From Panulirus ornatus (lineage: Eukaryota > Arthropoda > Malacostraca > Decapoda > Palinuridae): a stretch of DNA of 64,000 bases. Positions 32 through 51,540 of the stretch are shown here, one piece after another (the first letter of the stretch is position 1; each line of letters opens with the position of its first letter). The position numbers were made by a program, and so were the translations under genes. The stretch lies in NCBI RefSeq assembly GCF_036320965.1, contig NC_092225.1, positions 33,341,887 to 33,405,886 of the forward strand, given 5' to 3'. The notes under the pieces were generated by a model. The model made no database searches. It was not told the DNA's origin and saw only the letters and a list, made by a program, of their open reading frames with translations.

Positions 32-52
32 TAAATATATATATATATATAT

Positions 53-1015: not shown

Positions 1016-1074
<59 letters not shown>
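830..1074 (+). mobile_element. Copy A 3' UTR (short form) with A/(TA)n tail
   Basis: The short 3' UTR starts after the stop codon, contains the GCGCT.CCTCGC module near 978-990, and ends GACAGCGACAAAG followed by about 12 A and a (TA)n run (1022-1074). The same terminus follows copies C, D and the minus copy at 59251, which fixes the 3' end of the family. Confidence 0.85.
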
Positions 1075-1077
<3 letters not shown>

Positions 1078-2035: not shown

Positions 2036-2336
2036 CAGAGGTTGAACCATTATGTGACATTCATTTTTTTTCATTCATTACAAGCTAGAAGTTTCAGTTT
2101 TCTAAATTGTTTCTTACATTTCTCATATGTATATATATGTATGTGTGTGTGTGTGTATATGTGCGTGTGTGTGTGTATGTGTGTGTATGTGTATATGTAT
2201 ATATATATGTATATTATCCCTGGGGATAGGGGTGAAAGAATACTTCCCACGTATTCCTCGCGTGTCGTAGAAAGCGACTAGAGGGGACGGGAGCGGGGGG
2301 CCAGAAATCCTACCCTCCTTGTATTAACTTTCTAAA
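2036..2336 (+). mobile_element. Copy C 5' leader, including a GT/TA-rich tract
   Basis: This holds about 185 bp of leader (CAGAGGTTGAACCATTATG..., then a (TG)n/(TA)n tract at 2125-2215), followed by the family 5' UTR beginning CCCTGGGGATAGGGG near 2219. The leader occurs again in inverse orientation directly upstream of the copy at 59251-62747, but not upstream of the copies at 10366-12478 or 63050-64000. Because it lies inside the segment inserted into element B/D, it moved as part of copy C. Confidence 0.75.
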
Positions 2337-5294: not shown

Positions 5295-5493
5295 CATGCT
5301 GTCAGTGGATTGAATCGGGGCATGTGAAGTGTCTGGGGTAAACCATGGAAAGCTGTGTAGGTATGTATATTTGCGTGTGTGGACGTATGTATATACATGT
5401 GTATGGGGGGGGGGTTGGGCCATTTCTTTCGTCTGTTTCCTTGCGCTACCTCACAAACGCGGGAGACAGCGACAAAGTATAAAAAAAATAATA
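5295..5493 (+). mobile_element. Copy C 3' UTR (short form) and A-rich tail
   Basis: Same short 3' UTR as copy A, ending GACAGCGACAAAG then TATAAAAAAAATAATA. Element B/D resumes at 5494 without an obvious target-site duplication. Copy C including its leader is therefore a 3,458-bp insertion. Confidence 0.85.
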
Positions 5494-6587
5494 ATTTATG
5501 GATCTGGAGAAGGCATATGATAGAGTTGATAGAGATGCTCTGTGGAAGGTATTAAGAATATATGGTGTGGGAGGAAAGTTGTTAGAAGCAGTGAAAAGTT
5601 TTTATCGAGGATGTAAGGCATGTGTACGTGTAGGAAGAGAGGAAAGTGATTGGTTCTCAGTGAATGTAGGTTTGCGGCAGGGGTGTGTGATGTCTCCATG
5701 GTTGTTTAATTTGTTTATGGATGGGGTTGCTAGGGAGGTGAATGCAAGAGTTTTGGAAAGGGGCAAGTATGAAGTCTGTTGGGGATGAGAGAGCTTGGGA
5801 AGTGAGTCAGTTGTTGTTCCCTGATGATACAGCACTGGTGGCTGATTCATGTGAGAAACTGCAGAAGCTGGTGACTGAGTTTGGTAAAGTGTGTGAAAGA
5901 AGAAAGTTAAGAGTAAATGTGAATAAGAGCAAGGTAATTAGGTACAGTAGGGTTGAGGGTCAAGTCAACTGGGAGGTAAGTTTGAATGGAGAAAAACTGG
6001 AGGAAGTAAAGTGTTTTAGATATCTAGGAGTGGATCTGGCAGCGGATGGAACCATGGAAGCGGAAGTGGATCATAGGGTGGGGGAGGGGGCGAAAATCCT
6101 GGGAGCCTTGAAGAATGTGTGGAAGTCGAGAACATTATCTCGGAAAGCAAAAATGGGTATGTTTGAAGGAATAGTGGTTCCAACAATGTTGTATGGTTGC
6201 GAGGCGTGGGCTATGGATAGAGTTGTGCGCAGGAGGATGGATGTGCTGGAAATGAGATGTTTGAGGACAATGTGTGGTGTGAGGTGGTTTGATCGAGTAA
6301 GTAACGTAAGGGTAAGAGAGATGTGTGGAAATAAAAAGAGCGTGGTTGAGAGAGCAGAAGAGGGTGTTTTGAAATGGTTTGGGCACATGGAGAGAATGAG
6401 TGAGGAAAGATTGACCTAGAGGATATATGTGTCGGAGGTGGAGGGAACAAGGAGAAGTGGGAGACCAAATTGGAGGTGGAAAGATGGAGTGAAAAAGATT
6501 TTGTGTGATCGGGGCCTGAACATGCAGGAGGGTGAAAGGAGGGCAAGGAATAGAGTGAATTGGATCGATGTGGTATACCAGGGTTGA
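5494..6587 (+). pseudogene. RTE-like element, RT C-terminal half (copy D, right half of split element B/D)
   Basis: Continues copy B at FMDLEKAYDRVDRD through GLRQGCVMSPWLF, the catalytic box (here LLFPDDTALVAD, with A replaced by P), FRYLGVDL, the MLYGCEAWAM region and the GRPNWRW block. Breaks: a 2-base deletion near 5760 (GKY instead of GAS) shifts the frame, and AAG becomes TAG at 6417-6419. The canonical stop is at 6585-6587. The FPDD change at the RT active site, together with the frame breaks, shows a dead copy. Confidence 0.9.
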
Positions 6588-8753: not shown

Positions 8754-8860
8754 CTGCACAGTTTTTTTGACCCTATGTGAGGGTCCTGGGTGGTCGTTGG
8801 AGTATATGTCAGACAAAAACATAGAATTAATGAGTGTACTCTTCCCCAGTCCACTCTCAC
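8754..8860 (-). CDS. pnut: Septin-7/Peanut-type septin, P-loop exon (partial gene)
   Basis: A 107-nt exon on the minus strand. It is preceded by acceptor TTTTGTCTGCAG and followed by donor GTAAGT (8753-8748). It begins in phase 1 (GT completing a Gly codon) and encodes [19 protein letters not shown], then [16 protein letters not shown], ending in phase 0. GESGLGKST is the septin G1/P-loop, which binds the GTP phosphates, and [12 protein letters not shown] is the switch I side of the septin GTPase domain. Septins are GTP-binding filament proteins acting at the cell cortex and in cytokinesis; Septin-7/Peanut is the constitutive filament subunit. The phase matches the exon at 23903-24038 exactly. 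The next exons (DTPG and AKAD motifs) are not seen in 1-8753, so they should lie off the left edge. Too short to show as a long open frame; recognised by motif. Confidence 0.92.
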
Positions 8861-8906
8861 CTGCAGACAAAATGCAACTTAGCATGGGAAGTACATGGGA
8901 AAGGCA

Positions 8907-9094
8907 TACAGCAGAGGGCTTGTTGACCCAAATCTAAGTGGCTTCCTCCCCAACCTGCACTCCCTCTGGCAGGAATATGAACTGAAGAAATACCTTGCAC
9001 ATTTTAAGTCAGCCTGAATAGAATTTAATGGGACAAAGAACAAAAGGGAAGTCCTACTATAAAATCTTGTTGCACTATACAACCCTCTGCTGTA
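8907..9094. mobile_element. Possible MITE-like element with 12-bp terminal inverted repeats
   Basis: TACAGCAGAGGG at 8907-8918 is exactly inverted at 9083-9094, and similarity extends a few bases inward (TTGT/ACAA). The 188-bp interior encodes nothing recognisable. No convincing target-site duplication is visible, so this is a weak call. It lies in the septin intron 47 bp upstream (gene sense) of the P-loop exon. Confidence 0.4.
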
Positions 9095-9164
9095 CTACAA
9101 TATATTCTTAGGATAAGGAATGAGAAAAAAGAATAATTGGATATGTATAAATTTTTTTTCCTTG

Positions 9165-9745
9165 TCTTCATTCAGTACATATCAGAACTAATGAGAAATT
9201 TATCTAACCAGTTTTTGAAAGTATTCATAAACAGTCTTTGCACAGACAATATTTGATGATAACTTATTCCAGTGTTCAATGCACCTATTCAACGCACCTA
9301 CATGCAATGAAACTTTTTCCAATGTCAGAGTTACATCTTCTAGCTTTACATTTCATTTTGATTTTCCTAGTAACTGTATTCTCTTGTATTTCAAAAAGGT
9401 CTTCATGAATTTTGTTGTCTAAATTACTCAAATTTTGTAAACTTGTATTAGGTCACTGCAAAGTCTAAACTTCTTAAGAGAAAAGAGATCTAATCTTCTG
9501 AACCTCTCTTCATACATCTGTTATCTCAGAACTGCTATCAGTTTTGTCAACCATCTTGTACTTGTTCCAACTTTTCCTTATCTTTTTTGTAGTCTGAGGT
9601 CCAGCATTTGACTGTGGTCTTACTAAAATATCAAAAAGGGTCAGCATTTTTGCTGGTGTTTTGCATTCATTGTTCTTAGTTATGACACCGAACCTCCAAT
9701 TTCCTTTTTCATTTGCTGATATACACTGTTTAGTATACCTCAATT
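9165..9745 (-). pseudogene. CR1/Jockey-like non-LTR remnant, RT C-terminus (old)
   Basis: On the minus strand the pieces LTLFDILVRPQ, WNKYKMVDK, EERFRRLDLFSLKKFRLCSDL, ARRCNSDIGK, and either NTFKNWLDKFL or the alternative frame NKLSSN.VCAKTVYEYF follow the order of the C-terminal domain of CR1/Jockey-type elements (LVRPHLEY, EERLKRLDLFSLEKRR, CNSDIRKKFF, NSFKNRLD). Several frameshifts and stops separate them, so the remnant is old. It is a different family from the RTE copies around it. Confidence 0.65.
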
Positions 9746-10365
9746 TATCACAAATAACATCTTCAACATCCTTCTCTTCATCTACTTTAGTTAGTGAATT
9801 TCTGAATATCTCACAATATTAAGTATTTCACTCTTTAAAAAGCATAACTTTATATGTTTTCATTAAATTTCACCAACCATTAGCCCTACCACTCTACTTC
9901 ATAAAGATCTTTTAGAAACATTACTTAGTCTTGCCCATCTATAGCTCTACCTAGATTCATAGTGTATTATTATCTACAGGATTTCTGCTTCAGTTGTACA
10001 TGCATATGACTCAGTCTTCTTTATATTTAAGTTGGTACAGCATACACTATCATACTGCATCACACTTCATTTATCTATCTATTATTACCTTTAACTCCAA
10101 CCCCATTACATGGGATGGGTTAAGTGTATAATGCCTCTCAATTCACTTACACATCCTACACTTATTCTGGTGTGCTAATTTGAACTTGGGCTTTTACAAT
10201 TCTTTAAAAATTCATTAACTGTTCACTTTGCATACAAATTTGTGGCAGAATCCTAACCAATGAGGTTGACAGGTGCTGCTACTACAGTAGGGAGCTTAAT
10301 ACTTGTAAAAAGGTGAATTTGTGCCTCAAAGAGATACTATAATATTCTATTTATTTACTTATTCA
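9746..10365. other. AT-rich intronic sequence, nothing recognised
   Basis: Single-copy-looking, AT-rich sequence within the septin intron. I see no coding motif, tandem repeat or match to other parts of the window. A short tetranucleotide-like ATCTATCTATTA tract lies near 10070-10085. Confidence 0.5.
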
Positions 10366-12478
10366 TTTTGCTTTGTCGCTGTCTCCCGCGTTAGTGAGGC
10401 AGTGCAAGGAAACAGACAAAAGAATGGCCCAACCCACCCACATACACATGTATATACATACATGTCCACACACGCAAATATACATACCTATATATCTCAA
10501 CATATACATATATATACACACACAGACATATACATATATACACATGTACATAATTCATACTGTCTGCCTTTAATCATTCCCATCACCACCTCGCCACACA
10601 TGAAATAACCCCCTCCCCCTCATGTGTGAGAGGTAGTGCTAGGAAAAGACAACAAAGGCCACATTTGTTCACACTCAATCTCTAGCTGTCATGTAATAAT
10701 GCACTGAAACCACAGCTCCCTTTCCACATCCAGGCCCCACAGAACTTTCCATGATTTACCCCAGATGCTTCACATGCCCTGGTTCAATCCATTAACAGCA
10801 CATCGACCCCGGTATACCACATCGTTCCAATTCACTCTATTCCTTGCACGCCTTTCACCCTCCTGCATGTTCAGGCCCCAATCACTCAAATTCTTTTTCA
10901 CTCCATCTTTCCACCTCCAATTTGGTCTCCCACTTCTCCTCGTTCCATCCACCTCTGACACATATATCATCTTGGTCAATCTCTCCTCACTCATTCTCTC
11001 CATGTGACCAAACCATTTCAAAACACCCTCTTCTGCTCTCTCAACCACACTCTTTTTATTACCACACATCTCTCTTACCCTTACATTACTTACTCGATCA
11101 AACCACCTCACACCACACATTGTCCTCAAACATCTCATTTCCAGCACATCCACCTTCCTCCGCACAACTCTATCCATAGCCCATGCCTCGCAACCATATA
11201 ACATTGTTGGAACCACTATTCCTTCAAACATAACCATTATTTCCCAGCAAAAATTGTCCAAATGCCTCTCTCTTATCTTTCACTAATAATCTTACTTCTT
11301 CATCCCACCACTCACTACCCTTTCTAATCAACCCACCTCTCACGCTTCTCATGCCACAAACATCTTTTGCGCAAGCCATCACTGCTCTCCTAAATACATC
11401 CCATTCCTCCCCCACTCCCCTTACCTCCTTTGTTCTCACCTTTTTCCATTTTGTACTCAGTCTCTCTTGGTACTTCCTCACACAAGTCTCCTTCCCAAGC
11501 TCACTTACTCTCACCACTCTCTTCACCCCAACATTCTCTCTTCTTTTCTGAAAACCCCTACAAATCTTCACTTTCGCCTCCACAAGATAATGATCAGACA
11601 TCCCTCCAGTTGCACCTCTCAGCACATTAACATCCAAAAGTCTCTCTTTTGCGCGCCTATCAATTAACACGTAATCCAATAACACTCTCTGGCAATCTCT
11701 CCTACTTACATACGTATACTTATGTATATCTCTCTTTTTAAACTAAGTAATCCCCATCACCAGTCCTTTTTCAACACATAAATCTACAAGCTCTTCACCA
11801 TTTCCATTTACGACACTGAACACCCCATGTACACCAATTATTCCCTCAACTGCCACATTACTCACCTTCGCATTCAAATCATCCATCATTATAACCCGGT
11901 CTCGTGCATCAAAACTACACTCATTCAGCTGCTCCCAAAACATTTGCCTCTCGTGATCTTTCTTCTAATGCCCAGGTGCATATGCACCAATAATCACCCA
12001 TCTCTCTCCATCAACTTTCAGTTTTACCCATATCAATCTAGAGTTTATTTTCTTACACTCTATCACATACTCCCACCACTCCTGTTTCAGGAGTAGTGCT
12101 ACTCCTTCCCTTGCTCTTGTCCTCTCACTAACTCATGACTTTACTTGCAAGACATTCCCAAACCACTCTTCCCCTTTACCCTTGAGCTTCGTTTCACTCA
12201 GAGCCAAAACATCCAGGTTCCTTTCCTCAAACATACTACCTATCTCTCCTTTTTTCTCATCTTGGTTACATCCACACACATTTAGACACCCCAATCTGAG
12301 CCTTCAAGGAGGATGAGCACTCCCTGCGTGACTCCTTCTTCTGTTTCCCCTTTTAGAAAGTCAAAATACAAGGAGGGGAGAGTTTCTAGCCCCCCACTCC
12401 CGTCCCCTTTAGTCGCCTTCTACGATACATGAGGAATGTGTGGGAAGTATTCTTTCTCCCCTATCCCCTAGGATATAT
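10366..12478 (-). pseudogene. RTE-like copy E with the RT core deleted
   Basis: Minus-strand copy with both ends: long-form 3' UTR beginning at TTTGTCGCTGTCTCCCGC (about 10373) and 5' UTR reaching CCTAGGGGATAGG near 12470. The endonuclease remains recognisable (LALSETK, VMDDLNAKVS, LLDYVLIDRR, MSDHYLVEAK). The frame runs to FGQFLLGNNGYV (11224-11685), then jumps to MVMFEGIVVPTMLYGCEAW (10770-11261). RT motifs A, B and C are therefore lost in a ~1.4-kb internal deletion with a short GAAATAATGG/GCAAAAATGG microhomology near 11240. The start codon is also lost and the canonical final stop has become CGA. Confidence 0.85.
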
Positions 12479-12769
12479 TCTACAGTATGCAAATCTCACC
12501 CAGTTTTCTTTTGCAGACCTCGTTAGTACACCCTTAAAGCGGAACTGAAGGGAAGGTGTTGCCCAACTTAATCAGGTCAACAGTTTTGAAAACAGACAAA
12601 CATTTGAGGCGACCTGAAATTCTAATTTTTTGATAATCTAAGAGCCCTGCTACCTCTGGCAAACACTGCACTGAGTTTGCTATCTGCTAGTGGCCTGTCA
12701 AGGATAAAGCACTAAAGGATAAGAAGCAGCACTGGAGTCACCAGTTAAGCTGGGGAGTAAATGGGACGA
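12479..12769. other. Unassigned sequence upstream of old RTE copy
   Basis: No coding motif recognised. The last ~60 bases may be the 5' leader of the old RTE copy that follows, since they end directly at its first recognisable codons, but I have no second copy to compare. Confidence 0.4.
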
Positions 12770-15560
12770 GCAATTGTGTGTGATGGCTCAGAATGTTAGT
12801 GGGATGATTGGTAAGGGAAACAAGAGGGAGCTTGTGAAGAAATCTGAAAGTTATAGTTTGGATGTGATGGGATTAAACAAGTCCATATCAATGGACACAA
12901 TGAATGCAAGTTTTGCGAGGGCATGGAAGGAGTCATATGGACAAGAATGAATGAAAATTATCAGGGAAGAGGGAAAACAGGATGTGCAGTTACTAAGAGT
13001 ATAGGAGGATGTTACAGAGCATGGATGGAAAGTATCAAGAATGTTACAGAGCATGGATGGAAAGTATCAAGAATACTGTGGGTGAAAGGAAAGACATATT
13101 ATGAAGGATGCATGGGTACATGTATATACACCCATGAATATGAAGACTGTGTGAGATAAAGATGAAATGAAACATTTCTGAAGACATCTGAATGACTGTA
13201 TAAATGGGTTTGAGAAGGAGAGGAAGGTGGTTGTCATAGGTAATATACATGTGAAGGTGGAATGTGATGAATTTGGCAAGGTAGTTGGTAAATGGGGAGT
13301 GCCTAGAATAAATGAGAATGGAAGTTATCTTATGGATGTTGTGTTGAGAGGGGATTTATCTATTGCAAATACCTTTCTTCAGAACAAGATGATCCACAGA
13401 TATACATGTATGAGAAATGATTGAAGAAAGAAGAACAAAAGGGTTTGACTGAATATGAGGCAGTGAATGAAAGGTTGAGAAAGGCTGTGCTGGATGCAAG
13501 AGTTCCAAGTGGATTCTTTGGAGATTCTGGCCATTTTGCAGTGCTTGTGGAGGTATGGTGTAAAGAAAAATGAGAAGTAAAAGTGTTGACAAGCAAAGAA
13601 GATAAATCAGAATGAATGCAAGGAGGAATATGAAAGAAGGGTGACAATTTAGATGAAAGTGTAGTAAATGAAAGATGGTCATGTGTGAATGAGGTGTTTA
13701 AAATGCTTAGAGAAAGACTGTCAAATGTTGTCAAATTAGTACTTGGATAAAAGGTTGTGAGGTTGTGAGATGTAAGAATAAAAAGGGAAATGCATGGTGG
13801 ACAAGTGAGATTAGAAATGCTAAGGAAGAGAACAAAAAGGTTTCAGTTAGATTGCTCAAAGAAAATGTTCAGCAAAGGAGACAGAAGAAAGAATTTAAGG
13901 TGTGTAGATGGAATGTCAAGAAGCACATAGAAGAAAGCAAAGAAAGAGTAGATAAAGATTTTGGAAGAAAGCCAAGAGAAAAGTTTAGTGAAAATAAGAA
14001 ATTGTAATGGAAGGAGGTGAAAAACCAAAGAGTTGGGTGTAAGAGTTGAAATGTAAATGTCAGAAGCAAGGAAGGGGAATCATAAGGAGGAAGTGAAGAT
14101 GGAAAGAGTATTTTGAACTGATGGATGTGGAAGAAAGTGAGGCAGCAGTTGTCATATGCATGAGAATGGAGGGTGGAAGGAAAAGCACAGAAGCCTATAG
14201 CAAGAAAGGAGGTAAAAAGGGTGATAATGAAGCTGAAGGTAAGAAAGGCACCTGAAGAGGATGGGATCAAGGCTGAAATGTTGAAGTATGGAGTAGAAAT
14301 GAGATAAAGTGGATGCATTTGATATATGATTTAGCATCAAAACAGAAAGGTTGTGCCCGAGGATTAGGTGAAAGCTTTTATCATTCCTTTATTCAAAGGA
14401 AAAGGTTCTAAAGATGAAGGTAGCAATTATATGGGAACAATTCTATTAAGTATACCTGGAACAATGTATGCAAGAGTGTTGATTGATACAGTGATGGAAG
14501 TGACTAAATGCAAAATAAGTGAGGAGCAAGGGGGCTTTTGCAATGAGTATGACCATGGACCATGGAAAGGTATATAGCAAAATATAAAAAGCTGTATGTA
14601 GCCTTTATGGATCTAAAGAAAGCATATAACAGAGTCAAGAGGAGCGCTTTATGGAATGGTTAGGGATACATGGGGTAGGTGAACAACTGTTGGATGATGT
14701 GAAAGTCTCCTATAGAGTAGCAAATGCATCTGCAATAGTGGATGGAGAGTTGAACAAAAGTTTCCTTTCCATGCAGGAATGAGGTAAGGCTGTGTGATGC
14801 CACCATGGCTTTTTAACATAAATATAGATGGAGTGATATGCGAGATGAAAGCAAAACTCTTGGAATGGGTGTAGAGAAGGAGCATGGTGGTGAGGTATGA
14901 TGGCTAGTGACAAGCTTGCTTGCATATAAAGAGGAGGTGCAGAAGGTTGTAAGTGTGTTTCATGATGTGTGTTAAGTTTAGGAAATTGAAGGTAAATGTG
15001 AATAGAAGTACAGTAGTGGTATCTGATAGGAAACAGAGTGAAAGTATAGATTTTGCAAAGTCTTACAGAGTGAGAGAAGAAAGTGGACAAAACTGTCATA
15101 TATCTGGGGAGAGAAAGATGGAAGAGGTGACATAATCAAAGTATTTTGGAGCTATCTTGTGTAAGTTTGGTGATATGCAAGGAGAAATCTTAGCTAAGTT
15201 TGGTAATATGGAAGGAGAGATAAGGAAGAGAGCAGTAATAGATAGAAGAGTTACTGGGTACCTTAACAGAAAAATGAAGGGTAGAGCTGAAACTATGGAA
15301 GACAAGAAATCATAGTCCTCCCAACACAGACCTATGCCACTGAAACATGGATATGGAATGAGTCATAGGGGTCAAGAAACCAGGCTGTGGAAGTGAGCTA
15401 TTCGAGAGGAACGTATGGCAAGACTACATGGGATGAAGAAAGTATGAGAGATTTGGTATGGCAGGGAATGCAAAGGGAATGAACTGCAGGGTGGTAAAGT
15501 GGTTTGGGCATGAGAAGTACGCACAATGGGGAGTACACAAGGAGACTATATGATAGTATG
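12770..15560 (+). pseudogene. Old divergent RTE-like element (copy K)
   Basis: A collinear but diverged relative of the other RTE copies. It holds an endonuclease remnant (SYSLDVMGLNKS; VVIGNIHVKVECDEFGKVVGKWG near 13227-13310; FFGDSGHFAVLVE near 13520), a K/E-rich linker (13765-14007), and RT pieces: FIIPLFKGKGSKDEGSNYMG (14368-14430), LLSIPGTMYARVLIDTV, KISEEQGGF, YVAFMDLKKAYNRVK near 14598-14640, and KVNVNRSTVVV near 14990. KWFGH survives near 15493. Many frameshifts and stops, plus a tandem duplication of about 33 bp at 13012-13075, show long decay. Confidence 0.75.
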
Positions 15561-15570
15561 ATTAAAAAGG

Positions 15571-15864
15571 CAGCCCAAGTATGGCAGCACTGGCACCAGA
15601 GCAGGCCATTGAAGCAGTTACACCATTGTCCAAATATGGCAGCAGTGGCACCATGTTCCATGTATGGCAACAGTGGTATCACAGCCCAGGTATTGCAGCA
15701 GGGGCAACACAGTCCAGGTATGGTAACAATGGCTCCCCAGCCCAGTAATGGCAGCAGTGGCACCACAGCCTAAGTCTGGAAGTAGTAGCACCACAGCCCA
15801 GATATAGCAGCTGTGGCAACACAACCTAGGTATGGCAGCAGTGGCACCAGAGCTCAGGTATAGC
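15571..15864. repeat. Minisatellite, ~30-bp GCAGCAGTGGCACCA units
   Basis: About nine to ten degenerate units of the form ATGGCAGCAGTGGCACCACA followed by GCCCAGGT. Units differ by substitutions and small indels. Open frames through it are by-products of the repeat. Confidence 0.75.
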
Positions 15865-15897
15865 TTGTCCTAAATATAACTTGTTTACTCTTCAGTC

Positions 15898-17415
15898 GCG
15901 ACACCACCACACCTTAGCCACTTTTACATTCTATATTTTTCCTCAACTTAACTCCACCTGACATACACCCATCCCTCACCTACATCCTACTTCACATTCC
16001 CTCATCCCTCACCTGGACTCATCCCTCACATCCCAAACCACATACTCCTATCCCTCATCTACACTCCAACTCACATACCCTCATCCCTCACCCATACCTA
16101 ATCTCACACCCCAACTCAAATACCTCCATCCCTCACCTACACTCCACCTTAAATACCTTAATCCCACGCCTACACACCACCTCACATATCACCACTCCTC
16201 ACCTAAACCACAGTTCACAAACTCCCCCCCCTCACATACCCCCCATTTCTCACCTACACCCTAACTCACATACCCCTATCTCTCACTTACACCCTAACTC
16301 ACATACCTGGTAAATACCTGGTGATCTTAATACCTGGTGAGATCTTTGGGGGTCTTCATCCCCACAGCCCAGGCTTGGCCCAGCCCTCATCTAAACCCAA
16401 CATAATCCAATCCTTCACATCACATACCCCCACCCTCACCTTAAATACTCTCATCACACCGCACATACCCTAATCCTACCCTTCATACTGCCATCCCTCA
16501 CATATATCCCAATCTTTTTTGTACACCTCACCTCACATACCCTAACCTACAACTATACCCCACCTTTCATACCCCATCCCATAAATACAACTAACATCAC
16601 ATATCCCATCCCTCAAATACATCCCACCTCATATACTCCTCACCCAAACCCTATCTCAAATATCCCCAAACCAAAGTCCACATATTCCCATCCTTTACCC
16701 ACTTCTCACCTCATAGCACTATTCTTTACCCATGTACTAACTCATATACCCCAATTCCTCACATACACCCCACCTCACATGACCCTTATCAACACAAACC
16801 CCAAACACCTATCATTCTAACTCCATTCTATACTTACAATTCAACTTACCCAATCCCACACCAATATCATACCTCACATACCCCCAATCCTTACCTACAT
16901 CCCAACTCACATAAACTCCATATTTCCCCTTTCCATATTTACAACTCACCTCTCATAACCCATCCCACCTCATACATCCCCAACCCTCACAACTCCTCAT
17001 ATATAACTCACCTCATATATTTCTATTCCACATTTACAACTCATCTTGCATAACCTTATCACTCAACCACACCCAAAACCACAAACCCCATCTCTTACCT
17101 ACATTCCACCTCATACATTCCTTTCTTTATGGACATTCCACACATCCTGCCACACATATCCAATTCTATGCCTATGTCCCAATTCATATACCCCCATCCC
17201 ACACCACCTTAACTCACACACCCCATTTCATACCTACACCCTAACTCACAAACCTCATCCACACTCCATCTCACATAACCCAATCACACCCCATTCCTCT
17301 TTACATACCCCATCCCTCACCTACAGCCCACCTCACATACCCTCATCTCTATAGCAACTCACATACCACATCTACAACCCAGCTCACATACCCCTAACCT
17401 ACACCTAAAGCCGAC
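15898..17415. repeat. C/A/T-rich, G-poor minisatellite-like region
   Basis: About 1.5 kb built from degenerate ~30-bp phrases such as CCCATCCCTCACCTACA and CCACCTCACATACCC. The plus strand has very few G residues, so the septin-sense strand is G-rich with many GGG and GGTGAGG runs. It is interrupted by a CR1-like 3' fragment at 16305-16380. Confidence 0.7.
16305..16380 (-). mobile_element. 3' end fragment of a CR1-like family
   Basis: TACCTGGTGAGATCTTTGGG, GGTCTTCATCC and CCAGGCTTGGCCCAG resemble 46980-47035 (TATCTGGTGAAGTCTTCGGG...), which is attached to a CR1/Jockey-like RT remnant there. It could also be a SINE with the same 3' end. Confidence 0.5.
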
Positions 17416-17629
17416 CTCAAGGTGACTCAAACATCTCCCCTCATGACTCAAACTCCTCCTTTACCTTAACTTAAAGTGGAAGAATCTGTTTTGCTCTCAC
17501 TCATGACTCATGTCTCAAGGAAGAAACCAACATACTGTACCAGTCTTAGGGCCACCTCTTATCAGATATTCCAAAAAGAAGCCTTATATTAAGGTGGGAC
17601 TATCTAACCCAATGCATGTTGCTACAGAC
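17416..17629. other. Spacer between low-complexity blocks
   Basis: No gene or repeat recognised, apart from short CTCATGACTCA-type direct repeats near 17452-17510. Confidence 0.4.
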
Positions 17630-19560
17630 TACTTAACCATCTGTTGTTTGTGACAGGTGGCCCATTGTCCTTAGTGATAGGTGGGCCATTTGTCCTTAAT
17701 GAAAGGTAGACTATCTGTCGTTAGTGACGGGTGGATCATCTGTCTTTAGTGAAGTGTGGATAGTCTGTTGTTAGTGTAAGAGGACCACCTACAGTTAGAC
17801 ATATGTATGTACCATTGTCATTAGTAATGGGTGGACCGTGACGTGTGGACCATCTGTTGTTAGTGACGGGTGGATCCTCTGTTGTTAGTGACTTATGGAT
17901 AATCTATCATTAGTGATGTGAACCATCTGTTGTTAGTATAAGAAGACCACCAACTATTAGTAACATATGTACCATCCATTGTTAGTGTCGGGTGGACTGT
18001 GAGGTGTGGGCCAGCTGTCGTTATTGTCAATTTATAACCATCTGTCGCTACTGACTGGTGCACTTCAGTGACAGGTAAACAACCTGTTGTTAGTGAGAGG
18101 TAAACTATCTGTCACAAAAGACAGGTGAACCATCTGTCATTAGTGTTGGGTGGACCATCTGTAGTCTGTAGTCAGCGACAGATGGACCACCTGTTTTTAG
18201 TGACAAGTAGACCATCTCATTACTAACAGAAGAACAATCTGTCATTAATAACAAGTGAACCATTTGTCGTTGAAGGGTAAAAACTTCTTCTTTAGTGAAG
18301 ATAGAACATCTGTCATTAGTAATGAGTACCATCTGTTGTTAATGACAGGAAGACCCATGTGTCATTAAAGACAGGTGGAACATTCATGTTTAGTGACAGA
18401 TGGACCATCTGTTGTTAATGACAGGTAGACCATCTGTCGTTAGAGATGGGCAGACCAATGGTTGATGTCAGATGGACCATCTGTTGTTAGAAACAGGTGG
18501 ACCATCTGTCAGTAAAAGCAGGTGAACGATCTGTCGTAAGTAACAGATGAACCATCTGTCGTTAGTTTAGGGGATCATCTGTTGGTGATGGGTGGTACAT
18601 CTGTCATTAAAGACATGTGGACAATCTGTCAATATTGACAGCTGATCTACCTTTTGTTAGCTAAAGGTGAATTATGTCGTTATTGACAGGTGAACCATCT
18701 GTCATAATAGACAGGTGGACCATCTGTCATTATTGACAGGTCTACCATCTGTCTCTAATTACAGGTGGACTATTCGTGTTTAGCGCAAGTGGACCATCTG
18801 TCATTAATGACAGGTGAACCATTTGTGTTTAGTGGCTAGTGAACCATCTGTTGTTAATTAAAGGTGGACCATCTGTTGTTAGTGACAGATGGACCATGCG
18901 TCGTTTGTGAAATGTGGACAATCTGTCATCAGTGACAGGTGAACTATCTTTCGTAAGTGACAAGTGACCACTCGTGTTTAGCAACAAATGTACCATCTGT
19001 TGTTAATGACAGGTGGATCATTCATGTTTAGTGACAGGTGGACCATTCATGTTTAGTGACAGGTGGACCCATTGTCATTAGTAATATGTGGACCATTCAT
19101 GTTTAGTGACAGGTGGACCCATTGTCATTAGTAATATGTGGACCAGCAGTCATTAATGACATAAGAACCATCTTTCGTTAGTGACAGGTGGACAATCTAT
19201 CATAAGTGACAGGTGAATGACCTGCCATTAGTGATGGGTGGACAATCAGTCGATGGTGAGAGGTGAACGTTGTCATCAGTGAAATGAACCATCTGCCGTT
19301 AGTGACGGTGACCATCTGTTACTAGTAACAGGTGGACCATCTGTTGTAAGCGACATGTGGACAATCTGTCATTCATGAAAGATGAACACCTTTCGTAGTG
19401 ACAGGTGGACCATTAGCCATTACTGACAGGTGGACTACCAGTTATTAGTGGTTGATGGGCCATCTGCCATTAGTGGCTGGTGAACTAGCTGTGAGTGAAA
19501 TGTGTACCAGCTGTCGTTAGTGACAGGTGGACCATCTGTTGCTAGTGACAGGTGAAGCCT
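17630..19560. repeat. Degenerate ~25-27-bp minisatellite with internal dyads
   Basis: Roughly 70 diverged units of GTGACAGGTGGACCATCTGT followed by CGTTA. Most contain a small dyad GACAG...CTGTC around GTGGACCAT, so a single strand could fold into serial short hairpins. Divergence between units is higher than in the neighbouring 31-bp array, which suggests an older array. Confidence 0.8.
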
Positions 19561-19609
19561 ATGTCACCCCAACATTTGTGTAGGCAGTGGAAGGTTGACC
19601 TACCACCCC

Positions 19610-19728
19610 AGGGAGGCTGGGTGTCACTCTGCCCCAGTGCTACTCCCAAGGGAGGCTGGGTGTCACTCTGCCCCAGTGCTACTCCCAAGGGAGGCTGGGT
19701 GTCACTCTGCCCCAGTACCTCTCCCTGA
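19610..19728. repeat. Three tandem 39-bp units
   Basis: GGGAGGCTGGGTGTCACTCT followed by GCCCCAGTGCTACTCCCAA, repeated three times with the third diverging at its end. Because 39 is a multiple of three, a plus-strand frame reads REAGCHSAPVLLP repeatedly; nothing else supports coding. Confidence 0.85.
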
Positions 19729-19887
19729 GGAGGCTGTCCCCTATATCATAGAGGAGCCCCGGCCACCATGTGGGGCTCCCCCGTTCCCACAAGCTTCTGA
19801 GTTTCCATCATCAGCCCTTTGGCTCCCCAACTGCTGGGGCTCCTTCATCAGCACCTTGTGTCCTGTTGGTCGCCTGAATATGGTCTG
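19729..19887. other. GC-rich spacer, nothing recognised
   Basis: GC-richer than its neighbours. It carries no recognised coding motif on the septin strand. Confidence 0.4.
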
Positions 19888-22800
19888 CACTACTCACCAA
19901 CTACCATGATGATGAATACACTACTCACCAACTACCATGATGATGAATACACTACTCACCAACTACCATGATGATGAATACACTACTCACCAACTACCAT
20001 GATGAATACACTACTCACCAACTACCATGATGATGAATACACTACTCACCAACTACCATGATGATGAATACACTGCTCACCAACTACCATGATGATGAAT
20101 ACACTACTCACCAACTACCATGATGATGAATACACTGCTCACCAACTACCATGATGATGAATACACTACTCATCAACTACCATGATGATGAATACACTGC
20201 TCACCAACTACCATGATGATGAATACACTACTCATCAACTACCATGATGAATACACTACTCACCAACTACCATGATGATGAATACACTGCTCACCAACTA
20301 CCATGATGATGAATACACTGCTCACCAACTACCATGATGATGAATACACTACTCACCAACTACCATGATGATGAATACACTGCTCACCAACTACCATGAT
20401 GATGAATACACTACTCATCAACTACCATGATGATGAATACACTACTCACCAACTACCATGATGATGAATACACTGCTCACCAACTACCATGATGATGAAT
20501 ACACTGCTCACCAACTACCATGATGATGAATACACTGCTCACCAACTACCATGATGATGAATACACTACTCACCAACTACCATGATGATGAATACACTGC
20601 TCACCAACTACCATGATGATGAATACACTACTCATCAACTACCATGATGATGAATACACTACTCACCAACTACCATGATGATGAATACACTGCTCACCAA
20701 CTACCATGATGATGAATACACTGCTCACCAACTACCATGATGAATACACTGCTCACCAACTACCATGATGATGAATACACTATTCACCAACTACCATGAT
20801 GATGAATACACTACTCACCAACTACCATGATGATGAATACACTGCTCACCAACTACCATGATGATGAATACACTACTCACCAACTACCATGATGATGAAT
20901 ACACTACTCACCAACTACCATGATGATGAATACACTGCTCACCAACTACCATGATGATGAAGACACTGCTCACCAACTACCATGATGATGAATACACTAC
21001 TCACCAACTACCATGATGATGAATACACTGCTCACCAACTACCATGATGAATACACTACTCACCAACTACCATGATGATGAATACACTGCTCACCAACTA
21101 CCATGATGATGAATACACTACTCACCAACTACCATGATGATGAATACACTGCTCACCAACTACCATGATGAATACACTACTCACCAACTACCATGATGAT
21201 GAATACACTACTCACCAACTACCATGATGATGAATACACTGCTCACCAACTACCATGATGATGAATACACTGCTCACCAACTACCATGATGATGAATACA
21301 CTGCTCACCAACTACCATGATGATGAATACACTGCTCACCAACTACCATGATGATGAATACACTACTCACCAACTACCATGATGATGAATACACTACTCA
21401 CCAACTACCATGATGATGAATACACTGCTCACCAACTACCATGATGATGAATACACTGCTCACCAACTACCATGATGATGAATGCACTACTCACCAACTA
21501 CGATGATGAATACACTACTCACCAACTACCATGATGATGAATACACTGCTCACCAACTACCATGATGATGAATACACTACTCACCAACTACCATGATGAA
21601 TACACTGCTCACCAACTACCATGATGATGAATACACTGCTCACCAACTACCATAACGATGAATACACTGCTCACCAACTACCATGATGATGAATACACTA
21701 CTCACCAACTACCATGATGAATACACTACTCACCAACTACCATGATGATGAATGCACTACTCACCAACTACCATGATGATGAATACACTGCTCACCAACT
21801 ACCATGATGATGAATGCACTACTCACCAACTACCATGATGATGAATACACTATTCACCAACTACAATGATGATGAATGCAGTACTCACCAACTACCATGA
21901 TGAATGCAGTACTCACCAACTACCATGATGATGAATGCACTACTCACCAACTACCATGATGATGAATGCAGTACTCACCAACTACCATGATGAAGAATGC
22001 ACTACTCACCAACTACCATGATGATGAATGCACTAACTACATGATGAATGATGCCAACTACCATGATGATGAATGACTACTCACCAACTACCTGATGAAT
22101 ACTCAACTACCATTATGATGAATGCACTCACTAACTACCATGATGATGAATGCACTACTCACCAACTACCATGATGATGAATGCACTACTCACCAACTAC
22201 CATGATGATGAATACACTACTCACCAACTACCATGATGAATGCAGTACTCACCAACTACCATGATGAATACACTACTCACCAACTACCATGATGATGAAT
22301 GCACTCACTAACTACCATGATGATGAATGCACTACTCACCAACTATCATGATGAGGAATGCACTACTCACCAACTACCATGATGATGAATACACTACTCA
22401 CCAACTACCATGATGATGAATGTAGTACTCACCAACTACCATGATGAATACACTACTCACTAACTACCATGATGATGAATGCACTACTCACCAACTACCA
22501 TGATGATGAATACACTACTCACCAACTACCATGATGATGAATGCACTACTCACCAACTACCATGATGATGAATGCACTACTCACCAACTACCATGATGAA
22601 TGCACTACTCACCAACTACCATGATGATGAATGCACTACTCACCAACTACCATGATGATGAATGCACTACTCACCAACTATTATGATGAATGCAATACTC
22701 ACCAACTACCATGATGATGAATACACTACTCACCAACTACCATGATGATGAATACACTACTCACCAACTACCATGATGATGAATACACTACTCACCAACT

Positions 22801-23902
22801 ACCATGATGATGAATACACTGCTCACCAACTACCATGATGATGAATACACTACTCACCAACTACCATGATGATGAATACACTGCTCACCAACTACCATGA
22901 TGATGAATACACTACTCACCAACTACCATGTTGATGAATACACTACTCACCAACCTCCATGATGATGAATACATTGCTCACCAACTACCATGATGATGAA
23001 TACACTACTCACCAACTACCATGTTGATGAATACACTACTCACCAACTACCATGATGATGAATACACTACTTACCAACTACCATGATGATGAATACACTA
23101 CTCACCAACTTCCATGATGATGAATACACTGCTCACCAACTACCATGATGATGAATACACTACTCACCAACTACCATGATGAATACACTGCTCACCAACT
23201 ACCATGATGATGAATACACTACTCACCAACTACCATGATGATGAATACACTACTCACCAACTACCATGATGATGAATACACTACTCACCAACTACCATGA
23301 TGATGAATACACTACTCACCAACTACCATGTTGATGAATACACTACTCACCAACTATCATGATGATGAATACATTGCTCACCAACTACCATGATGATGAA
23401 TGCACTACTCACCAACTACCATGATGATGAATACACTACTCACTAACTACCATGATGATGAATGCACTACTCACCAACTACCCTGATGATGAATACACTA
23501 CTCACCAACTACCATGATGATGAATGCAGTACTCACCAACTACCATGATGATGAATGCAATACTCACCAACTACCATGATGAATACACTACTCACCAACT
23601 ACCATGATGATGAATACACTACTCACCAACTACCATGATGATGAATACACTACTCACCAACTACCATGATGATGAATACACTACTCACCAACTACCATGA
23701 TGAATACACTACTCACCAACTACCATGATGATGAATGCAATACTCACCAACTACCATGATGATGAATACACTACTCACCAACTACCATGATGATGAATAC
23801 ACTACTCACCAACTACCATGATGATGAATACACTACTCACCAACTACCATGATGATGAATACACTACTCACCAACTACCATGATGATGAATGCACTACTC
23901 AC
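19888..23902 (-). repeat. Tandem array of the septin exon-end/5' splice-site sequence (~130 units of 28/31 bp)
   Basis: In septin sense the typical unit reads CATGGTAGTTG|GTGAGTAGT followed by GTATTCATCAT. The first part equals the last coding bases of the adjacent septin exon (ATG GTA GTT G) and the second equals its real donor GTGAGT plus AGTG. The array starts immediately after the exon at 23902 and runs for about 4,015 bp. Units are 31 bp, or 28 bp when one ATG triplet is missing; common variants are CACTACTC/CACTGCTC and ATACAC/ATGCAC. Substitutions in the donor hexamer are rare by eye. A short stretch near 22029-22100 is scrambled. Translation past any donor reads MVVGE and then TAG. 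All units are in the same orientation as the gene. Confidence 0.95.
23897..23902 (-). promoter_or_regulatory. Authentic 5' splice site (donor GTGAGT) of the septin exon
   Basis: GTGAGT directly follows ...CTC ATG GTA GTT G. The phase-1 end joins exactly to the phase-1 start at 8860 to give [11 protein letters not shown]. It is the first of about 130 nearly identical donor copies; exon context upstream (CTC instead of ATC before ATGG) distinguishes it from the array units. Confidence 0.85.
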
Positions 23903-24038
23903 CAACTACCATGAGGGAGAACTCGAAGCCTCGTTTGACGGCCTTGCGGTACACCTGGTTGGGAAGGTTGGCGAAGCCCACATACCCGTCAACTTCTCTT
24001 GGTCGTCTCTCCTTCACCAGCTCCTTTACCATCTTGTT
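23903..24038 (-). CDS. pnut: Septin-7/Peanut-type septin, N-terminal exon (partial gene)
   Basis: A 136-nt minus-strand exon, phase 0 in and phase 1 out. It reads [18 protein letters not shown], then [20 protein letters not shown], then EFSLMVVG. The [14 protein letters not shown] block and VKRGFEF are hallmarks of the Septin-7/Peanut group (polybasic/N-terminal edge of the GTPase domain) and run into the P-loop exon at 8754-8860. The acceptor is ATTGCAG (about 24045-24039). An ATG at 24032-24030 has a good context (AAGATGG) and could be the start, 16 residues before YVGF, if upstream exons are untranslated; otherwise the N-terminus is encoded further right. No downstream septin exon is found between this and the P-loop exon, so the intron is 15,042 bp. 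Confidence 0.93.
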
Positions 24039-24086: not shown

Positions 24087-26345
24087 AATATCTTGTGGAG
24101 GCGAATTTGAAGATTTGTTGGGGTTTCCAGAAAAGAAGAATGTTGGGGAGAAGAGAGTGGTGAGATTAAGTGAGCTTGGAAAGGAGACGTGTGAGGAAGT
24201 ACCAGGAGAGACTGAGTGTAGAATGGCAAAAGGTGAGAGCAAATGAAGTGAAGGGAGTGGGTGAGGAATGGGATATATTTAGGGAAGCAGTAATGGCTTG
24301 CGCTTAAAGACGCATGTGGCATGAGAAAGGTGGGAGGTGGGCAGATTAGAAAGGGTAGTGAGAAGTGGGATGAAGAAGTAAGGTTGTTAGCGAGAGAGAA
24401 AAGAGACGCGTTTGGACGATACTTGCAGGGAAGGAGTGTAAATGACAGGAAGATGTATAAAAGAAAGCGGCAGGAGGTCAAGAGAAAGATGCAAGTGGTG
24501 AAAAAGAGGGCAAACGAGAGTTGGGGTGAGTTTTGGGTATATAAAAAGATGTTTTGGAAGGAGGTAAATAAAGTGCGTAAGACAAGAGAACAAATGGGAA
24601 CATCGGTGAAGGAGGCTAATGGGGAGGTAATAACAAGTAGTGGTGAAGTGAGAACCAGATGGAGTGAGTATTTTGAAGGTTTGCTGAATGTGGTTGATAG
24701 AATGGCAGATATAGGGTGTTTTGGTCCAGGTGATGTGCGAAGTGAGAGGATCAGGGAGAATGATTTGGTAAACAGAGAAGAGGTAGTGAGAGCTTTGCGG
24801 AAGATGAAATCTGGCAAGGCGGCAGGTTTGGATGGTATTGCTGTGGAATATATTAAGAAAAGGGTTGACTGTGTTGTTGATTGATTGGTCAGGATATTCA
24901 ATGTATGTATGGATCATGGTGAAGTGCCCGAGGATTGGCATAATGCATGCACAGTGCCACTGCATAAAGGCAAAGGGGATAAAGGTGAGTGTTCAAACTA
25001 CAGAGGCATACGTTTGAGTACTAATAAGGAATCATATGAGAGGGTATTGATTGAGAGGGTGAAGGCATGTACAGAGCATCAGAATGGGGGAGAGCAGTGT
25101 GGTTTCAGAAGTGGTAGAGGATGTGTGGATCAGGTGTTTGCTTTGAAAAATGTATGTGAAAAATACAAAGAAAAACAGATGGATTTGTATGAAGCATTTA
25201 TGGATCTGGAGAAGACATATTATAGGGTTGATAGAGATGCTTCGTGGAAGGTCTTAAGAGTATATGGTGTGGAAGGCAACTTGCTAGAAGCAGTGAAAAG
25301 TTTCTACCAAGGATGTAAGGCATGTACACGAGTAGGAAGAGAGGAGAGTGATTGGTTCCCAGTAAATGTCCGTTTGCGGCAGGCGTGTGTGATGTCTCCA
25401 TGGTTGTTTAATTCATTTATGGACGGAGTTGTTAGATAGGTAAATGCAAGAGTTTTGGAGAGATGAGCGGATATGCAGTCTGTTGGGGATGAGAGGGCCT
25501 GGGAAGCGAGTCAATTGTTGTTCGCCAATGATACAGCTCTAGTGGCTGATCCGGGTGAGAAACTGCAAAGGTTGGTGACTGAGTTTGGAGAAGTGTGAAA
25601 GGAGAAAGCTGACAGTAAATGCGAATAAGAACAAGGTCATTAAGTTCAGTATGAATTGGGGACAAGTGAATTGGAATGTAAGTTTGAATGGAGAAAAATT
25701 GGAGGAAGTGAAGTATTTTAGATATCTGGGGGCGGACTTAGCAGCGGATGGAACGATTGAAGCGGAAGTGAGTCACAGGGTGGGGGAGGGAGCGAAGGTT
25801 CTGGGAGCGATGAATAGTGTGTGAAAGGAGAGAACATTATCTGGGAGAGCAAAAATGGTATGTTAGAAGGATTAGTGGTTCCAACAATATTATATGGTTA
25901 TGAGGCATGGTCTATAAATAGGGTGGTGCGGAGGAGAATGGATGTGTTGGAAATGAGATGTTTGAGGACAATATGAAGTGTGAGGTGGTTTGATCGAGTG
26001 AATGAGTGAGGAAAGATTGACAAAGAGGATATATGTGTCAGAGGTGGAGGGAACAAGGAGAAGTGGGAGACCAAATTGGAGGTGGAAGGATGGAGTGAAA
26101 AATATTTTGAGCGATCGGGGCCTGGGCACACTAGAGGTTGAGAGGTGTGCCAAAAATAGTAAATTGGAACGATGTGGTATACCGGGGTCGACGTGCTGTC
26201 AATGGATTAAACCAGGGCATGTGAAGCGTCTGGGGTAAACCATGGAAAGTTGTGTGGGGCCTGGATGTGGAAAGGGAGCTGTGGTTTCGATGCATTATAC
26301 ATGACAGCTAGAGGCTGAGTGTGAAAGGATGTGGCCTTTGTCTGT
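24087..26345 (+). pseudogene. RTE-like copy F, 5'-truncated and broken
   Basis: Begins in the last part of the endonuclease ([21 protein letters not shown]) and continues through the linker (24321-24884), RT (ACTVPLHKGKGDKGECSNYRG, GFRSGRGCVDQVF, FMDLEKTYYRVDRD, RLRQACVMSPWLF), catalytic box LLFANDTALVAD, FRYLGADLAADGT and the GRPNWRWKDGVK block (26002-26238). Stops at 24882-24884 and about 25437, frameshifts near 25570 and a deletion near 25995 break it. RT motif C reads FAND rather than FADD, and motif A is TYYRV. A long-form 3' UTR starts about 26170 and is cut near 26345 by the GT-rich minisatellite. It lies just upstream (gene sense) of the septin exon and antisense to the gene. Confidence 0.88.
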
Positions 26346-36474: not shown

Positions 36475-39400
36475 ACTGAGGCCCCACAAGGTACACTTAC
36501 TGAGGCCTCACAAGGTACACTTACTGAGGCCCCACAAGGTACACTTACTGAGGCCTCACAAGGTACACTTACTGAGGCCTCACAAGGTACACTTACTGAG
36601 GCCCCACAAGGTACACTTACTGAGGCCTCACAAGGTACACTTATTGAGGCCTCACAAGGTACACTTACTGAGGCCCCACAAGGTACACTTACTGAGGCCT
36701 CACAAGGTACACTTACTGAGGCCACACAAGGTACACTTACTGAGGCCTCACAAGGTACACTTACTGAGGCCTCACAAGGTACACTTACTGAGGCCTCACA
36801 AGGTACACTTATTGAGGCCTCACAAGGTACACTTACTGAGGCCCCACAAGGTACACTTACTGAGGCCCCACAAGGTACACTTACTGAGGCCTCACAAGGT
36901 ACACTTACAGAGGCCTCACAAGGTACACTTACTGAGGCCTCACAAGGTACACTTACTGAGGCCTCACAAGATACACTTACTGAGGCCTCACAAGGTACAC
37001 TTACTGAGGCCCTCACAAGGTACACTTACTGAGGCCTCACAAGGTACACCTTACTGAGGCCTCACAAAGGTACACTTACTAGGCCTCTCAAGGTACACTT
37101 ACTGAGGCCTCACAAGGTACACTTACTGAGGCCTCACAAGGTACACTTACTGAGGCCCTCAAAGGTACACTTACTGAGGCCCCACAAAGGTACACTTACT
37201 GAGGCCTCACAAGGTACACTTACTGAGGCCTCACAAGGTACCACTTACTGAGGCCTCAACAAAGGTAACACTTACTGAGGCCCTCACAAGGTACACTTAC
37301 TGAGGCCTCACAAGGTACACTTACTGAGGCCTCACAAGGTACACTTACTGAGGGGCCTAAGCTCACAAGGTACCTTACTGAGGCTACAAGGTACACTTAT
37401 GAGGCCCTCACAAGTACACTTACTGAGGCCTCACAAGGTACACATCTGAGGCCCAACACGGTACACTTACTGAGGCCTCACAAGGTAACTTCTGAGGCCT
37501 CACAAGTTACACTTACTGAGGCCTCACAAGGTACACTTACTGAGGCCTCACAAGGTACACTTACTGAGGCCTCACAAGGTACACTTACTGAGGCCTCACA
37601 AGGTACACTTACTGAGGCCTCACAAGGTACACTTACTGAGGCCTCACAAGGTACACTTACTGAGGCCACACAAGGTACACTTACTGAGGCCTCACAAGGA
37701 CACTACTGAGGCCTCACAAGGTACACTTACTGAGGCCTCACAAGGTACACTTACTGAGGCCTCACAAGGTACACTTACTGAGGCCTCACAAGGTACACTT
37801 ACTGAGGCCTCACAAGGTACACTTACTGAGGCCACACAAGGTACACTTACTGAGGCCTCACAAGGTACACTTACTGAGGCCTCACAAGGTACACTTACTG
37901 AGGCCTCACAAGGTACACTTACTGAGGCTCACAAGGTACACTTACTGAGGCCTCACAAGGTACACTTACTGAGGCCTCACAAGGTACACTTACTGAGGCC
38001 TCACAAGTGACAATACTTACTGAGGCCATCACAAGGTACACTTACTGAGGCCTCACAAGGTACACTTACTGAGGCCTCACAAGGTACACTTACTGAGGCC
38101 TCACAAGGTACACTTACTGAGGCCTCACAAGGTACACTTACTGAGGCCTCACAAGGTACACTTACTGAGGCCCCACAAGGTACATTTACTGAGGCCTCAC
38201 AAGGTACACTTACTGAGGCCCCACAAGGTACACTTACTGAGGCCCCCACAAGGTACACTTACTGAGGCCTCACAAGGTACACTTACTGAGGCCTCACAAG
38301 GTACACTTACTGAGGCCTCACAAGGTACACTTACTGAGGCCCCACAAGGTACACTTACTGAGGCCTCACAAGGTACACTTACTGAAGCCCCACAAGGTAC
38401 ACTTACTGAGGCCCCACAAGGTACAATTACTGAGGCCACACAAGGTACACTTACTGAGGCCACACAAGGTACACTTACTGAGGCCACACAAGGTACACTT
38501 ACTGAGGCCTCACAAGGTACACTTACTGAGGCCTCACAAGATACACTTACTAAGTCCACACAAGGTACACTTACTGAGGCCACACAAGGTACACTTACTG
38601 AGGCTTCACAAGGTACACTTACTGAGGCCCCACAAGGTACACTTACTGAGGCCTCACAAGGTATACTTACTGAGGCCACACAAGGTACACTAACTGAGGC
38701 CTCACAAGGTACACTTACTGAGGCCTCACAAGGTACACTTACTGAGGCCTCACAAGGTACACTTACTGAGGCCTCACAAGGTACACTTACTGAGGCCTCA
38801 CAAGGTACACTTACTGAGGCCTCACAAGGTACACTTACTGAGGCCCCACAAGGTACATTTACTGAGGCCTCACAAGGTACACTTACTGAGGCCCCACAAG
38901 GTACACTTACTGAGGCCCCCACAAGGTACACTTACTGAGGCCTCACAAGGTACACTTACTGAGGCCTCACAAGGTACACTTACTGAGGCCTCACAAGGTA
39001 CACTTACTGAGGCCCCACAAGGTACACTTACTGAGGCCTCACAAGGTACACTTACTGAGGCCCCACAAGGTACACTTACTGAGGCCCCACAAGGTACAAT
39101 TACTGAGGCCACACAAGGTACACTTACTGAGGCCACACAAGGTACACTTACTTAGGCCACACAAGGTACACTTACTGAGGCCTCACAAGATACACTTACT
39201 GAGGCCACACAAGGTACACTTACTGAGGCCCCACAAGGTACACTTACTGAGGCCTCACAAGGTACACTTACTGAGGCCTCACAAGGTACACTTACTGAGG
39301 CCTCACAAGGTACACTTACTGAGGCCTCACAAGGTACACTTACTGAGGCCTCACAAGGTACACTTACTGAGGCCTCACAAGGTACACTTACTGAGGCCCC

Positions 39401-51530: not shown

Positions 51531-51540
51531 CACATGTTGC

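Follow-up and report, generated by a model that had tools for sequence, protein, structure and literature searches.

A minisatellite in register with a septin 5' splice site lines an intron of Panulirus ornatus with 125 further donor-like sites

INTRODUCTION

Most studies of how the spliceosome singles out one of several equal donors use minigenes with two or three copies. In Panulirus ornatus, a conserved septin gene is accompanied by 82 perfect copies of its own donor, and a stop codon would mark every wrong choice. The copies belong to a tandem array of 31-nt units that begins at an exon/intron border in the stretch of DNA analyzed here, 64,000 nt of contig NC_092225.1 (positions 33,341,887 to 33,405,886; hereafter the window, numbered from its first letter). 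How did such an array arise, and how does splicing live with it? A preliminary description, made from the letters of the window, had placed about 130 copies over 4 kb at 19888..23902, had derived them from a duplicated septin exon border and had held that no such system of this size was described. We consider it probable that the array is an ordinary minisatellite, born across the exon/intron border and tolerated since the first donor wins.

RESULTS AND DISCUSSION

The array adjoins a septin exon

The gene is a septin-7 orthologue on the minus strand, with two exons in the window. Exon A (23903..24038, 136 nt) lies between a TTGCAG acceptor and the donor TTG/GTGAGT (the slash marks the exon/intron junction), whereas exon B (8754..8860, 107 nt), which encodes the P-loop (GESGLGKST), ends at CAG/GTAAGT with no array. 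The intron between them (8861..23902, 15,042 nt) is in phase 1 and interrupts a P-loop glycine codon. Spliced together, exons A and B encode 81 residues that align without a gap across the junction with human septin-7 (E 3.4e-34). A probe search of 80 kb below the window revealed five further septin exons (C to G) on the same contig, which bears out the earlier reading of exon A as a septin exon. The seven exons are in order; the A-B join was computed, and the other five joins are in frame in a by-eye reading of the sequence. The ends of the gene (the part upstream of exon A and the C-terminal end) were not found in the window and the 80 kb below it. Exons C, D, E, and F have the donors TTG/GTGAGT, AGG/GTAAGT, CAG/GTGAGA, and AAG/GTAAGG, and exon G, whose end was read by eye, probably has TAA/GTAAGT. 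The donor 9-mer of exon C is thus the same as that of exon A, yet exon C has no array. An array of at least five copies lies within 800 nt of one of the seven donors, that of exon A, and of none of the seven acceptors.

With its exonic first copy and the whole of its last copy, the array spans 19886..23921 (minus strand) and holds 132 copies, that of the exon included, with a period of 31; Tandem Repeats Finder reported 19888-23914, period 31, 131.7 copies, and 91% matches. The coordinates first given for it were correct to within 20 nt. Aligned with a fuzzy anchor, 110 of the 132 copies are 31 nt long and 19 are 28 nt long, with one each of 19, 30, and 45 nt. The unit consists of TTCATCATCATGGTAGTTG followed by GTGAGTAGTGYA. 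Its first copy (23891..23921, minus strand) straddles the junction, with 19 nt from the end of exon A and 12 nt from the start of the intron (GTGAGTAGTGCA). The exonic part, TTCTCCCTCATGGTAGTTG, agrees with the first part of the unit at 16 of 19 positions, the last 12 exactly (binomial probability, 3e-7), and the similarity is in register with the exon/intron junction. The resemblance of exon and array therefore goes beyond chance, as had been supposed; the 12 exact nucleotides stood, but the full exonic share of the unit is about 19 nt.

Together with the real one, 126 donor 9-mers could be read: 83 are TTGGTGAGT, 36 are TTGGTGAGC, 4 are TTAGTGAGT, 2 are TTGGTGAAT, and 1 is TTGGTAAGT. Among the 125 later donors, 82 are identical to the real donor. 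The hexamers of the 132 copies comprise 86 GTGAGT, 36 GTGAGC, 2 GTGAAT, 1 GTAAGT, 2 others, and 5 that were not read. The preliminary statement that GTGAGT is little changed does not hold at position +6, the most variable column of all (C in 36/132 copies), ahead of +11 (30 copies) and +8 (11 copies); position +1 is A in 4 copies. Over the 132 rows, substitutions at donor columns +1 to +5 number 4, 0, 1, 0, and 2, and these column counts gave no sign of special conservation of the donor relative to neighboring columns.

The variants are grouped in blocks. Going through the array third by third from its first copy, GTGAGC occurs in 6, 11, and 19 copies and C at +11 in 11, 18, and 1; the two variants never share a copy, and one block of 7 copies is present twice in succession. 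No higher-order period of the copies was detected (best lag identity of 0.244 versus shuffle maxima with a mean of 0.232 and a 99th percentile of 0.276). The block-wise pattern looks like a trace of unequal exchange. It also bears on the idea that the array is an assembly artefact or a collapse or expansion error: long arrays are difficult to assemble, and the copy number may still be wrong, but graded variants in blocks, including the repeated 7-copy block, and the passage of the array into non-array sequence on both sides make such an error very improbable. An exact 21-mer of the array had 66 matches in the genome, which all fell in the septin array among the places listed, and no match in viral contigs.

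One duplication across the border would explain both array edges

The intronic part of the last copy (19886..19897, minus strand) reads GTGAGTAGTGCA, after which the array gives way to intron sequence outside the repeat, GACCATATTC; this would be the 3' breakpoint of the founding duplication. Since the last copy ends in this way, a single duplication from exon position -19 to intron position +12 would account for both edges, and the border duplication first proposed can thus be given exact limits. From the sequence of the copies, we propose that duplication of this 31-nt stretch was followed by unequal exchange or slippage, which expanded the array on its intronic side, in a region where minisatellites were already abundant. 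The copy in coding sequence would have been held fixed because it encodes a P-loop strand. All 13 minisatellite loci (period of at least 15, at least 5 copies) of the 144 kb covered by the window and the sequence below it lie in one 43-kb stretch of the window (15571-58342), and exon A is inside this cluster; the same cut-off gave none in the 95 kb below, which contain the 5,000 N among the 144,000 bases. When 13 hand-picked Tandem Repeats Finder arrays were placed at random in the window with its four exon edges, a founder unit overlapped an exon edge, with 6 nt or more on each side, in 1.4% of the trials, a figure that is not alarming given how the window was chosen.

The sequence in the exon is likely ancestral to that in the array, since human septin-7 and the paralogue L012 read FTLM, exon A reads FSLM, and the array version would read FIIM. 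L012 is one of two septin relatives found elsewhere in the same genome. It has an intron at the same codon and in the same phase, with the donor TAG/GTAAGT and no array at it in its 3.1-kb locus, so the intron between exons A and B predates the array. The other relative, L010 (on contig C72), has a P-loop exon that runs without an intron through the site at which the window gene and L012 are interrupted. We also considered intron gain by tandem genomic duplication, which, as far as the part of the literature used here describes it, likewise involves a duplication over a site able to act as a splice site. That process starts from a gene without the intron and was rejected, as L012 carries the intron free of an array and the septin intron is older than the array.

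Every later donor would bring in a stop codon

Read-through from exon A into the array yields ...LMVVGE followed by a stop, and the mRNA would contain an in-frame stop with each of the 125 later donors, as the preliminary description had predicted for any donor other than the first. With later donors, exon A would measure 167, 198, 229 ... nt; it stays at or below 300 nt with 6 donors and at or below 500 nt with 12, the first included. Occasional use of a later donor would thus produce an mRNA with MVVGE and a stop that is expected to decay. Such introns are also a practical trap for gene finding, as programs that predict donor sites will probably have difficulty with them.

Which donor is used? 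The transcript would bear 125 further donor-like sites, and the first donor is most likely still used, by analogy with human ABCA7 (see below) and on the general principles of exon definition. It is the only one to bound a compact exon (136 nt) that has an acceptor and purine-rich, enhancer-like sequence, and the later donors would be disfavored because they are located in a purine-poor, UAG-rich repeat. Over its first 117 nt, exon A has 222 purine triplets per kb, compared with 35 in the array, 112 in exon B, and 115 in the rest of the intron; the corresponding numbers of TAG per kb are 0, 54, 9, and 14.

Four points weigh against this view. Among 12 other arrays of the window, 7 are equally poor in purine triplets and 3 are at least as rich in TAG, so the contrast between exon and array may aid the selection of a donor but did not necessarily evolve to that end. 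By sequence, the real donor is not superior to its 82 identical copies. According to the part of a report used here, SRSF1 is able to favor the intron-proximal of two donors and would favor later copies (PMC5585400). Finally, the comparison with human ABCA7 might not transfer to this animal.

Exon-donor minisatellites are already known in human genes

The intron-18 variable-number tandem repeat (VNTR) of human ABCA7 starts at an exon donor and has a 25-nt unit (De Roeck et al. 2018, PMC5954066). Its alleles range in length from 298 bp (about 12 units) to 10,678 bp (about 427 units), so the claim that no such system of this size was described had to be abandoned. In the part of that report used here, and with our interpretation of a "respectively", the donor of the next unit is used at 2 ± 1% irrespective of VNTR size, and stop-bearing transcripts increase with cycloheximide (PMC5954066). 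The longest allele combination, compared with the shortest, showed 3.2-times-higher skipping of exon 19 and 33% lower expression (PMC5954066).

The two arrays are alike in that each lies right after an exon, with a first copy that holds the canonical donor GT and later copies that offer donors, and in that use of the next copy shifts the frame and brings a stop in ABCA7, while 125/125 later donors of the septin array would bring an in-frame stop. They are also of similar build (25- versus 31-nt unit, about 12 to 427 versus 132 copies). They differ in gene and organism, and, from what the ABCA7 report gives, in that the length variation, the isoforms, and the association with disease have been measured for ABCA7, whereas the septin array is known from one assembly; moreover, the first two nucleotides of the ABCA7 VNTR are the donor, whereas the septin unit includes 19 nt of coding exon. 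The septin array thus has the sequence features of the ABCA7 type: it abuts an exon, its first copy contains the donor of that exon, its later donors look usable, and their use would break the frame. As in ABCA7, a long array may modestly reduce expression or disturb the next exon.

In the minisatellite of human IFI6 (6-16), two downstream repeat units serve as donors, giving three mRNA species, as stated in the part of the report used here (PMC4526556). Downstream units as donors are the likeness to the septin gene, whose later donors are predicted from sequence; the difference is that the IFI6 variants encode isoforms, whereas later septin donors give stops. This minisatellite, whose description is credited to Turri et al. 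in 1995, reportedly has a shorter unit and fewer copies than the septin array. With the ABCA7 and IFI6 precedents, the exon-donor minisatellite is a known kind, and the three arrays suggest that it arises recurrently. A limited keyword search of the literature found no exon-donor array in a septin or an invertebrate, which is weak evidence of absence. Of interest here are the scale in a conserved gene and a hint of repeated array formation in this genome.

Other roles for the array

In an alternative reading, the array acts as a rheostat of unproductive splicing: a set fraction of transcripts would use later donors, gain MVVGE and a stop, and decay, so that array length sets septin-7 output. 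The early in-frame stop with 125/125 later donors, 82 of them identical to the real donor, would suit this reading, as would the retention of one unit in ABCA7, the rise of stop-bearing transcripts with cycloheximide, and the drop of expression with VNTR length. However, retention in ABCA7 is independent of VNTR size, the authors conclude, in the part of their report used here, that retention is not the cause of the lower expression, and the donor columns of the septin array show no special conservation. We therefore regard a rheostat as unlikely; a regulatory role of the array is possible but unsupported.

The donor copies might instead act on U1, as a decoy or docking array whose bound U1s shield the 15-kb intron from premature polyadenylation, retain the transcript in the nucleus, or titrate U1. 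The computed pairing of TTG/GTGAGT with the U1 end is fair (-8.9 kcal/mol, versus -11.8 for the consensus CAG/GTAAGT), and neither AATAAA nor ATTAAA occurs in the array, against 6 in the following 11 kb of the intron. However, titration of a cell's U1 by a single gene seems implausible, and the commonest variant, GTGAGC (36 copies), weakens the site to -8.1 kcal/mol. A hairpin over the donor in the commonest copy (-7.2 kcal/mol, z of -2.33) would hinder binding; it is weaker in the GTGAGC copy (-4.5 kcal/mol, z of -0.60). In a donor matrix, the true site scores 8.0 and the consensus 12.9, and scores of at least 8.0 are reached at 84 sites of the array and at 53 other sites of the same sense, so sites as good or better are not peculiar to the array. 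Nor was support found for the preliminary suggestion of U1 titration or splice modulation: the donor columns show no special conservation, and another same-sense array of the window (36475-40660, see below) holds many donor-like sites with no exon recognized beside it by eye. We consider a U1 array highly unlikely. A recursive (ratchet) splice site was rejected as well: it needs a polypyrimidine-AG directly before the GT, and the unit reads GGTAGTTG/GTGAGT, with no AG at the junction.

A last proposal is that RNA structure selects the first donor, inner copies masking one another and the edge copy being free. Copies are able to form a donor-masking hairpin, and the first donor 9-mer was the most open of 119 at folding windows of 150 and 240. 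However, 84 of 118 later donors exceeded it in openness with a window of 80, as did eleven with the 6-mer at window 150. In 20-copy models, the ratio of first to inner donors varied from 0.1 to 20.5 depending on the window, and an unmutated repeat behaved alike; five-fold repeats of the unit folded only mildly better than shuffled units (z of -1.9; 10/300 shuffles as good). The effect, strong in some settings, thus failed upon change of the window and in the comparison with the unmutated repeat, and structure has very little chance of being the selector of the first donor.

Serial donor-like arrays elsewhere in the genome

Serial AGGTGAGT arrays are frequent in this genome. In the 2.65-Gb assembly, in which the window belongs to contig C2, a pattern of three AGGTGAGT in a row with 10- to 40-nt spacing gave 3266 + 4251 = 7517 matches. 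This is 2.3-fold more than the 1801 + 1530 = 3331 matches of the reversed-pattern control, although overlap inside arrays makes the matches dependent on one another, and part of the difference may stem from composition. The pattern misses the septin array, whose copies read TTGGTGAGT, but the counts point to where further exon-donor arrays may be sought. We fetched 24 distinguishable arrays from contig C1 and the start of C2, which represent the head of the list and not a random sample; Tandem Repeats Finder reported an array over 23 of these 24 loci.

One of them, L060, is a second exon-donor minisatellite, as judged from homology. The frame before its first donor encodes an ShK domain (PF01549, E 3.6e-8, above the curated cut-off, residues 264-299 of 302). 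The donor, CCGCAG/GTGAGT, lies 3 residues past the domain, and the 28 nt that precede the donor recur exactly in the array. The exon and its 28-nt array occupy about 1330-2540 in sense (minus strand), with 38.3 copies by Tandem Repeats Finder. We counted 12 CAG/GTGAGT and 9 other GTGAGT sites in the array, so many copies would have lost or never had a donor. The C/T-rich CCTCCCGCAG/GTGAGT of L060 also resembles an acceptor immediately before a donor; a C/T-rich-AG/GTGAGT is present in both L054 and L060, unlike in the septin unit.

Pfam searches covered the upstream frames of 18 of the 24 loci (all but L044, L047, L050, L052, L054, and L063). Fourteen of these loci contained a total of 22 open frames with 25 codons or more, of which 20 were searched (without L061:1869-1952 and L064:1841-1921), and only the ShK domain of L060 passed the curated cut-off. 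Below it were a weak ETF_alpha match in L064 (E 0.092) and DUF3772 in L056, in simple repeats. L064, in which 22 nt before the donor are repeated, and L053, with 7 nt, look similar to the septin case and are candidates with no family match above the cut-off. In L051 (plus strand, 1433-2880), 18 nt before the donor are repeated beside an exon-like stretch, and this array may be a coding decapeptide repeat rather than a donor array, since its 30-nt unit stays open in frame (QEVDEHSQVS repeated). PDB searches with the L051 and L064 peptides returned no match up to E 10. In L057 (plus strand, about 2035-2080), a C/T-rich tract ending in GCAG stands right before the first GTGAGT of a 39-nt array, which may thus sit at an acceptor.

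As a group, the 24 array edges were not more exon-like than 47 single GGTRAGT sites (medians of 3.3 and 4.1, Mann-Whitney p = 0.24) with a home-made acceptor score plus open frame. This score has little power, since septin exons A to F themselves rated only 5.1 to 9.4, partly via false acceptors; at the six loci left out of the Pfam searches, which had no first GTRAG at the edge, the first AGGTGAGT of the triple took its place. In all, there are two cases with homology evidence and two candidates, with no statistical proof of a class. A repeated birth of minisatellites over the borders between exons and their 5' splice sites throughout the genome, which would leave many genes with tens to hundreds of serial donors, is conceivable but doubtful. 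If true, splicing must reliably choose the first donor, and the genome would constitute a series of natural experiments on donor choice with varying array length, unit strength, and reading frame.

Other repeats of the window

Two further minisatellites of the window carry donor-like sites. The 24-nt minisatellite at 36475-40660 (minus sense) contains 151 TCA/GTAAGT and 97 CTT/GTGAGG in the septin sense. No exon was recognized by eye beside it, the flanks not having been searched for homology, and it is perhaps a case of serial donor-like sites without exon origin. The 33-nt minisatellite at 45383-46899 carries GTAAGT on the plus strand, antisense to septin, with no exon seen by eye at its edges. 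Two overlapping stop-free frames of 1414 and 1339 codons (51493-55737 and 51306-55325, minus strand) run across a 32-nt minisatellite, though 32 is not a multiple of three. Finally, reverse-transcriptase-like frames mark retroelement copies at 1-6500, 24100-25500 (by eye), and 59487-62453, which we take to be of the non-LTR (long terminal repeat) type from their motifs; the last of these holds an open frame of 989 codons on the minus strand.
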